Of a stretch of DNA of 64,000 nucleotides, positions 44,042-45,218 are shown in pieces. Location: NCBI RefSeq assembly GCF_001592735.1, contig NZ_LUKE01000001.1:1647018-1711017 (forward strand), written 5' to 3'. The notes under the pieces are model-generated. The model saw nothing but the letters and a program-made list of their open reading frames with translations. It was not told the DNA's origin and did no database searches. Source of the stretch: Bdellovibrio bacteriovorus (GTDB lineage Bacteria; Bdellovibrionota; Bdellovibrionia; Bdellovibrionales; Bdellovibrionaceae). The translations under genes and the position numbers were made by a program. Position 1 is the stretch's first letter, and each line of letters begins with the position of its first letter.

Positions 44042-44069
44042 TTGCACAGTATTTGGGCTGTGCTAATTT
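44042..44069 (+). promoter_or_regulatory. Candidate promoter of the RRM gene
   Basis: TTGCAC (44042-44047), 16-bp spacer and TAATTT (44064-44069) preceded by TG at 44061-44062 (extended -10). It would leave a leader of about 83 nt before GTG 44159. A 6-bp dyad (GCACAG/CTGTGC) overlaps it. Confidence 0.35.
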
Positions 44070-44158: not shown

Positions 44159-44539
44159 GTGGCTAAAAAATTATATGTAGGAAACTTGCCGTACTCAGTT
44201 GATGACGAGGCACTTCACCAACACTTTGCTCAATTCGGAGCAGTTGATTCAGCAAAAGTTATCATGGACAGAGAAACGGGCCGTTCAAAAGGTTTCGGTT
44301 TCGTAGAGATGGCTGACGATTCAGCAGCTGACCAAGCTATTGAGCGTGGTAACGGCGTTGAGCTTAACGGTCGCGCGATCAACGTATCTGAAGCTCGTCC
44401 ACAAGCTCCTCGCGAAGGCGGCGGTGGTCGTGGCGGCGGTCGCGGTGGTTTCGGCGGTGGTGGCGGTGGCCCACGTCGTTCTGGTGGCGGCTTCGGCGGC
44501 GGACGCGGTGGTTCTGGCGGTGGCGGATCTCGCTACTAA
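44159..44539 (+). CDS. Glycine-rich RNA-binding protein with RRM domain
   Basis: 126 residues. A single RRM occupies about 3-80 with RNP2 LYVGNL and RNP1 KGFGFVEM intact. The rest is a glycine/arginine-rich tail with RGG-like repeats. Such bacterial RRM proteins are often cold-induced RNA chaperones. The start is GTG 44159, with AAGGAGG five bases upstream, and begins directly with the RRM; upstream codons are open but not supported. A strong terminator-like hairpin follows 45 bases after the stop and runs into tesA. Confidence 0.93.
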   Translation: MAKKLYVGNLPYSVDDEALHQHFAQFGAVDSAKVIMDRETGRSKGFGFVEMADDSAADQAIERGNGVELNGRAINVSEARPQAPREGGGGRGGGRGGFGGGGGGPRRSGGGFGGGRGGSGGGGSRY

Positions 44540-44584
44540 GACCCCATAAGTTTGACTTAGTCAGACTTGTTAAAAAGGTTTTTC

Positions 44585-44622
44585 AAAGGTCTCATAGGAA
44601 ACTATGAGACCTTTTTTATTTT
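44585..44622 (+). terminator. Terminator-like hairpin overlapping the tesA start codon
   Basis: AAAGGTCTCATAG (44585-44597) and CTATGAGACCTTT (44602-44614) form a perfect 13-bp stem with a GAAA tetraloop, followed by TTTATTTT. It is placed as the terminator of the RRM gene. The tesA ATG (44604-44606) lies inside the 3' arm, and the U-tract encodes the first residues of the TesA signal peptide. Confidence 0.88.
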
Positions 44623-45218
44623 TCATCTCAGCACTCATTTCATTTTCCCTTTTATCTGCAAATGCCTTCGCCGAAAAAAAATTAGTCGTCCTTGGTGATT
44701 CCATCACTGAAGGTTATGGCGTGGCAAAGTCGGCAGCGTATCCCACATTGCTGGAAAAAAAACTTCATGAAGCCGGCAAAAAAGAATGGACCGTGATTAA
44801 TTCTGGCGTCAGTGGATCAACCACGGCTTCAGGATTGTCGCGCATGAAATGGCTATTTAAAAGCAAGCCCGATGCCGTGCTTTTAGTCTTAGGTGCCAAT
44901 GATGGTTTGCGTGGCTTAAAAGTCGAAGCCAGTCAAAAAAACCTGGCGGATGCCATTGAGTACGCCCAATCGCAAAAAGTGAAAGTCATCTTGGGTGGTC
45001 TTTATATGCCGCCGAATTATGGTAAAGACTATACAGATCAGTTTAAAAAAATGTATTCGGATCTGGCGGCGAAATACAAAGTCACTTTGATTCCATTCAT
45101 TCTTGATAAAGTGGGCGGTGATCCCAAATACAATCTTGCTGATGGTATTCATCCAAACGAAGAAGGACATAAAATTATCGCGGATACGATTTTCAAGGTC
45201 CTAAAGGGGGCCTTGTGA
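44604..45218 (+). CDS. tesA: GDSL-type esterase/thioesterase TesA, exported
   Basis: 204 residues with a signal peptide (about 1-23). SGNH hydrolase motifs: GDSIT (Ser about 32), a Gly block, GAND (about 97-100) and DGIHPN with Asp and His near 188-191. TesA-type enzymes are periplasmic acyl-CoA thioesterases and lysophospholipases. No alternative start would keep the signal peptide, so ATG 44604 stands even though it sits in a hairpin. The stop overlaps the ybbA-like start by 4 nt. In E. coli tesA is divergent from ybbAP; here they are one operon. Confidence 0.93.
   Translation: MRPFLFFISALISFSLLSANAFAEKKLVVLGDSITEGYGVAKSAAYPTLLEKKLHEAGKKEWTVINSGVSGSTTASGLSRMKWLFKSKPDAVLLVLGANDGLRGLKVEASQKNLADAIEYAQSQKVKVILGGLYMPPNYGKDYTDQFKKMYSDLAAKYKVTLIPFILDKVGGDPKYNLADGIHPNEEGHKIIADTIFKVLKGAL

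Follow-up and report, generated by a model that had tools for sequence, protein, structure and literature searches.

How can a gene be expressed when its start codon lies inside what appears to be the terminator of the gene before it? This question is raised by a locus in the window, a stretch of 64,000 nucleotides from Bdellovibrio bacteriovorus, where a gene for a glycine-rich protein with an RNA recognition motif (RRM) precedes tesA (Table 1). The latter encodes a TesA-like secreted GDSL esterase and is the first gene of tesA-ybbA-ybbP-tsaC; the three genes after it (for an ABC ATPase, an FtsX-type permease, and a TsaC/Sua5 protein) abut or overlap. An earlier note, written from the sequence alone, had assigned three roles to a single sequence (terminator, start site, and signal-peptide code) and had proposed that expression of tesA may depend on read-through, an internal start, or the RRM protein.

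Table 1. Features of the RRM-tesA locus (positions in the window)
Feature	Position	Strand	Basis
RRM glycine-rich protein gene; source of the terminated transcript	44159..44539	+	Pfam RRM_1, E 3e-23; ORF
Proposed tesA -35 (TTGTTA; GnCTTG core at 44564-44569)	44567..44572	+	Conservation, fixed spacing
Terminator 5' arm	44585..44597	+	Fold; pairing kept with double changes
Proposed tesA -10 (TCTCAT; alternative register CATAGG at 44593-44598), in the 5' arm	44590..44595	+	Conservation, positional scores
GAAA loop	44598..44601	+	Sequence and fold
Terminator 3' arm, with the tesA ATG (44604-44606) inside	44602..44614	+	Sequence, ORF
Predicted start of tesA transcription (leader 0-2 nt), 7-9 nt past the -10 hexamer	44602..44604	+	Inferred from promoter geometry
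tesA-like secreted GDSL esterase gene, first of tesA-ybbA-ybbP-tsaC	44604..45218	+	Pfam Lipase_GDSL_2, E 6e-30
T-tract; tesA codons 4-7 (signal peptide F-L-F-F); expected end of the RRM transcript	44615..44623	+	Sequence, ORF

The hairpin is as the earlier note had described it. Its arms, AAAGGTCTCATAG and CTATGAGACCTTT, form 13 perfect base pairs, begin 45 bases after the RRM stop codon, and are followed directly by the T-tract TTTATTTTT. The RNA fold of 44585-44622 has an energy of -19.4 kcal/mol, compared with -4.9 ± 1.9 kcal/mol for shuffled sequences (z = -7.5), and none of 200 shuffles was as stable. We thus find a stable G+C-containing stem with an adjoining T-tract downstream of a gene stop, and its pairing is maintained in relatives; together these features suggest that the RRM gene has its intrinsic terminator at 44585-44623, where RNA polymerase would stop. 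Its length and energy are close to those typical of mapped intrinsic terminators, which have stems of about 11 bp and about -17 kcal/mol (PMC7566282). Unlike in ordinary terminators, however, the start codon of the next gene lies within these bases, as do codons of its signal peptide and, as we argue below, probably its -10 element.

An in-frame TAG in the 5' arm (44595-44597) lies just before the tesA ATG, so no longer reading frame is available here. In support of this start, the encoded signal peptide is an ordinary one, and the protein shares 70-84% identity with its counterparts in the other 23 members of the genus. Codons 3 to 7 (CCT TTT TTA TTT TTC) read Pro-Phe-Leu-Phe-Phe, which bears out the claim that the U-tract is also signal-peptide code. 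Codons 2 to 4 are almost always AGA CCT TTT in the genus, while those from codon 7 onward vary freely.

We inspected the RRM-tesA interval at every locus and scored its terminators, with 24 genomes of the genus included. RRM precedes tesA in almost every genus member, and many other genera of the family share this gene order. In 19 of the 24 genus members, the tesA ATG lies within a terminator hairpin with the same core, TCTCATAG-N4-5-CTATGAGA being nearly invariant. Across the family, the start codon is held by a hairpin at 31 of 47 RRM-tesA loci, and eight other genera show the overlap, for nine in total; it is not a chance of one genome. At a locus of another genus (L027), three stem pairs are changed on both sides with the pairing, ATG, and T-tract retained. 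Quite different stems, such as AATAGCAGCC/GGCTGCTATT and AAGATCCTAAG/CTTAGGATCTT, occur at 11 loci of other genera (L031, L091, L095, L098, L099, L101, L103, L107, L108, L110, and L114), where the ATG sits in the loop or the 3' arm and the T-tract codes for a hydrophobic, mostly Phe-rich signal peptide. When 13 hairpins were aligned (the genus plus g9 and g10), 97% of the cells paired and 4 of 13 pairs were changed on both sides, versus none or one in a control with slid partners. Conservation of pairing, T-tract, ATG, and codons 2 to 4 thus supports the view that a single sequence serves all three functions.

The hairpin at the ATG is absent from five genus members (L013, L014, L017, L018, and L020) and from 11 other loci, and at most loci without the overlap a distinct terminator follows the RRM stop. 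On the TesA tree, the overlap state must change 12 times, and well-supported branches force at least 7 of these changes. These replacements and repeated changes indicate that the hairpin serves as the RRM terminator and that the overlap has been repeatedly gained and lost. Loss of pairing despite an unchanged gene order, which the earlier note would have taken as a refutation, is thus seen in 5 genus members, with pairing preserved in 19. Since those five carry a separate terminator upstream, the loss favors a role as terminator and speaks against an AUG-hiding switch being obligatory.

We also determined how common this geometry is in the same genome, using a 464-kb sample (L121-L140 and the window). 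It contains 192 terminator-like hairpins, about 145 of them outside genes, and only the tesA hairpin and one other among the latter clearly hold a gene start, or about 1-2% of terminators. Set against this background, 31 of 47 RRM-tesA loci means that something favors the overlap here. The second case (L126:7892-7918; C1:447892-447918 in genome coordinates) is a gene for a DUF4105-like secreted protein that follows a gene for a small secreted protein, both named by resemblance; its start codon lies in the upstream terminator hairpin, AAAAGCCCCATGGAAATGGGGCTTTT plus a T-tract. This arrangement occurs in at least four genomes, including three relatives (L142, L143, and L144), and others have a separate terminator; in L153 and L155, the T-tract runs directly up to the ATG.

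If the hairpin ends RRM transcripts, where would tesA transcripts begin? Of 25 loci in the genus and L027, 24 have a GnCTTG motif exactly 17 or 18 nt before TCTnATrG; the exception, L021, has TTTCTT. Over the 25 loci, the five columns of GnCTTG other than n each carry 1.8-2.0 bits, compared with a nearly random 0.56 bits in spacer columns 1-12. The distance from the RRM stop to the ATG varies from 64 to 142 nt while the spacing between the two motifs is fixed. This arrangement, GnCTTG-N17/18-TCTnATrG, is consistent with a sigma-70-type promoter that would initiate 0-3 nt before the AUG. Because the 5' arm is also constrained by pairing, conservation of the -10 taken by itself is confounded at overlap loci; the five genus members whose pairing is broken nevertheless keep the element, which pairing therefore does not explain. 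The case for a promoter is therefore carried by the -35 box, the fixed spacing, and this subclade.

Positional scores point to the same place. In 20 of 24 genus members, sigma-70-type scores are highest for a -10 that starts at -15 to -11 relative to the tesA ATG. Scores peak there, too, across 19 clusters of loci outside the genus (P = 0.0002), and across the 8 of these clusters that have the overlap (P = 0.0036). The scoring matrix is approximate, and clustering partly handles the nonindependence of related genomes. A scan of the region with a strict sigma-70 consensus returned no promoter-like site, so the claim rests on comparison rather than on consensus; TCTCAT itself does not have the usual A at position 2 and matches the consensus weakly. 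About 15 bp upstream is a second box, TTGAC (44553-44558), accompanied by a second score peak at -32 to -30, which in some genus members could direct initiation ahead of the hairpin. It is missing from L013-L020-type loci and altered in L009, L015, L022, and L027.

Two other readings of the element were rejected. E. coli sigma-E promoters have a spacing of about 16 nt, whereas GGACTT...TCTGAT, read as an ECF/RpoE-type promoter, would be spaced about 21 nt from its -10. The pattern CTTG-N19/20-TCTSATRG occurs once in the genome, with 0-1 occurrences expected from a control; hence there is no dedicated regulon of exact matches. As a separate observation, an inverted repeat containing the TTGAC box, AAGTTTGACTTAGTCAGACTT (44549-44570), is partly conserved in the genus and could be the -35 of the second promoter or a regulator site overlapping the tesA -35.

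A Shine-Dalgarno (SD) sequence is not conserved at tesA in the genus, although the window and a few relatives have AGGA at close spacing. The SD and the promoter peak exclude each other: the peak is found in 0 of 5 SD clusters and in 11 of 14 clusters without one (P = 0.005). The same division is seen in the B. bacteriovorus genome sample, where the top promoter falls at -15 to -11 from the ATG in 46 of 161 genes without an SD (15 expected), about a quarter, but in only 7 of 176 SD genes (16 expected). The peak of the former group, at -12, corresponds to the published signature of leaderless genes, TANNNT about 12 bp before the start (PMC3160421, PMC12340547). Leaderless genes were reported in 8 of 33 deltaproteobacterial genomes, with Bdellovibrio unnamed in the main text (PMC3160421). 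A published Bdellovibrio start map lists attack-phase promoters (PMC3627812). Our counts indicate that a sizeable class of leaderless genes exists in this genome and, more broadly, that Bdellovibrio-type bacteria use many leaderless mRNAs.

tesA resembles this class in having a -10-type element about 12 bp before the start codon, with the promoter peak at -15 to -11, and no conserved SD, and RNA starting at its AUG is not unusually structured. We infer that tesA mRNA is leaderless or nearly so, with a predicted leader of 0-3 nt and without the 5' arm. Yet it departs from TANNNT genes in two respects: its -10 in the genus (TCTCAT or CATAGG) does not fit that motif and lies inside a terminator, and in many members it sits 8-9 nt from the ATG rather than 6.

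Taken together, the hairpin and its conservation, the position of the ATG, the promoter-like element, and the leaderless class, all of them read from sequence, make it probable that the tesA operon promoter is nested in the intrinsic terminator of the RRM gene and yields a leaderless or near-leaderless mRNA. Under this model, the -35 would lie upstream of the stem and the -10 within the DNA that encodes the 5' arm; transcription would begin at the loop or 3' arm, at the AUG or up to 3 nt before it. RRM RNA would contain both arms and end in the U-tract, while tesA RNA would begin between the arms and carry only the 3' one. Lacking the 5' arm, the latter could neither form the terminator nor hide its own AUG, and the two transcripts would share no hairpin; the overlap probably works because the second gene's RNA starts so close to its own start codon that the stop hairpin is always left out. 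Translation would then be of the leaderless or near-leaderless type. Polymerase arriving from RRM would likely cross the tesA promoter and might damp it. The self-termination and concealed AUG that the earlier note foresaw for a transcript with the whole hairpin would not apply to the predicted tesA RNA.

A simpler scenario is that the start codon drifted into the terminator in a short intergenic space, signal peptides being permissive to Phe and Leu codons, with no functional coupling. We regard this as a possible but not the favored account. The changes forced on the TesA tree and the second such gene in the genome agree with it, and it fits the origin of the overlap well. It leaves the expression of tesA unexplained, however, and sits poorly with the contrast between RRM-tesA loci and the genome sample. 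Drift of this kind is compatible with the nested promoter, as its evolutionary route.

Read-through attenuation, in which tesA would be expressed only from transcripts that start at RRM, or just upstream of the stem, and run past the terminator, after which ribosomes, an RNA chaperone, or the RRM protein would open the AUG, seems unlikely. It follows naturally from a hairpin that would both terminate a transcript and mask the AUG, and the TTGAC box could supply a start near the 5' arm, but that box is absent or changed at the loci named above. Moreover, no SD is conserved in the genus, and a leaderless-type promoter is present in most relatives without an SD, even those without the hairpin overlap or an RRM neighbor; it also persists where the subclade has dismantled the hairpin. 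RRM still adjoins tesA where the overlap is gone, so nothing ties its protein to the hairpin. Among the routes listed in the earlier note, an internal start is therefore favored, and neither read-through nor RRM-controlled anti-termination is needed to explain tesA expression. Read-through fits best in two other genera: L031 and L101 have a good SD (AAGGAG and GAGGAG) in the loop or the 5' arm of the hairpin but no scoring promoter close to the ATG, which makes them candidates for possible control of tesA by attenuation or read-through.

The tesA hairpin resembles attenuators and riboswitch expression platforms in placing a terminator able to sequester the AUG at the 5' end of a gene. In contrast to these systems, we found no anti-terminator, leader peptide, or known RNA family at the tesA start, nor an alternative structure or a ligand or leader-peptide sensor upstream, and the predicted transcript does not include the hairpin. 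An Rfam search gave chance-level matches only, none near threshold. A candidate hairpin upstream, AAGTTTGAC...GTCAGACTT, was rejected as a conserved RNA element since it is unpaired in several relatives.

It is quite improbable that the palindrome is mainly a DNA site for a tesA regulator and its terminator look secondary: although its core is nearly invariant in the genus and is left almost intact in the subclade with a relocated terminator, the T-tract and full-length stem are retained alongside it and are lost together once a separate terminator appears, other genera hold a hairpin plus T-tract on unrelated stem sequences, and the compensatory changes fit RNA pairing.

Every component of the nested promoter is of a known kind, and compact tandem genes with an upstream terminator overlapping a downstream promoter likewise share regulatory DNA. 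Among the papers that our literature search found, none describes a single terminator that encloses a promoter, start site, start codon, and signal peptide and that recurs on unrelated stems; the overlap itself is confirmed and unusually recurrent. We tentatively extend the nested promoter to a recurrent module of the Bdellovibrio family, evolved repeatedly on unrelated stems, in which the hairpin might act as a terminator for transcription from upstream and as a promoter and leaderless start from within. Transcription of the upstream gene and of the tesA operon would then be mutually exclusive, and hiding of the AUG would silence read-through RNA. With a leaderless second mRNA, two transcription units can use the same set of about 40 bases and not conflict, and genome annotation would overlook this way of compacting a genome. 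With its many natural variants (overlap, separate terminator, and SD type), the RRM-tesA pair offers a testable case of transcriptional insulation and interference at overlapping signals.

Two minor observations concern related geometries. At L140:16024-16051, a terminator-like hairpin plus T-tract lies inside the first 15 codons of a lipoprotein gene. In the window, a possible RRM promoter, TTGCAC-N16-TAATTT (44042-44069), overlaps a weak terminator-like hairpin (44044-44063) directly after a DUF520 (YajQ-type) gene, perhaps a promoter-in-terminator layout again, one gene upstream.
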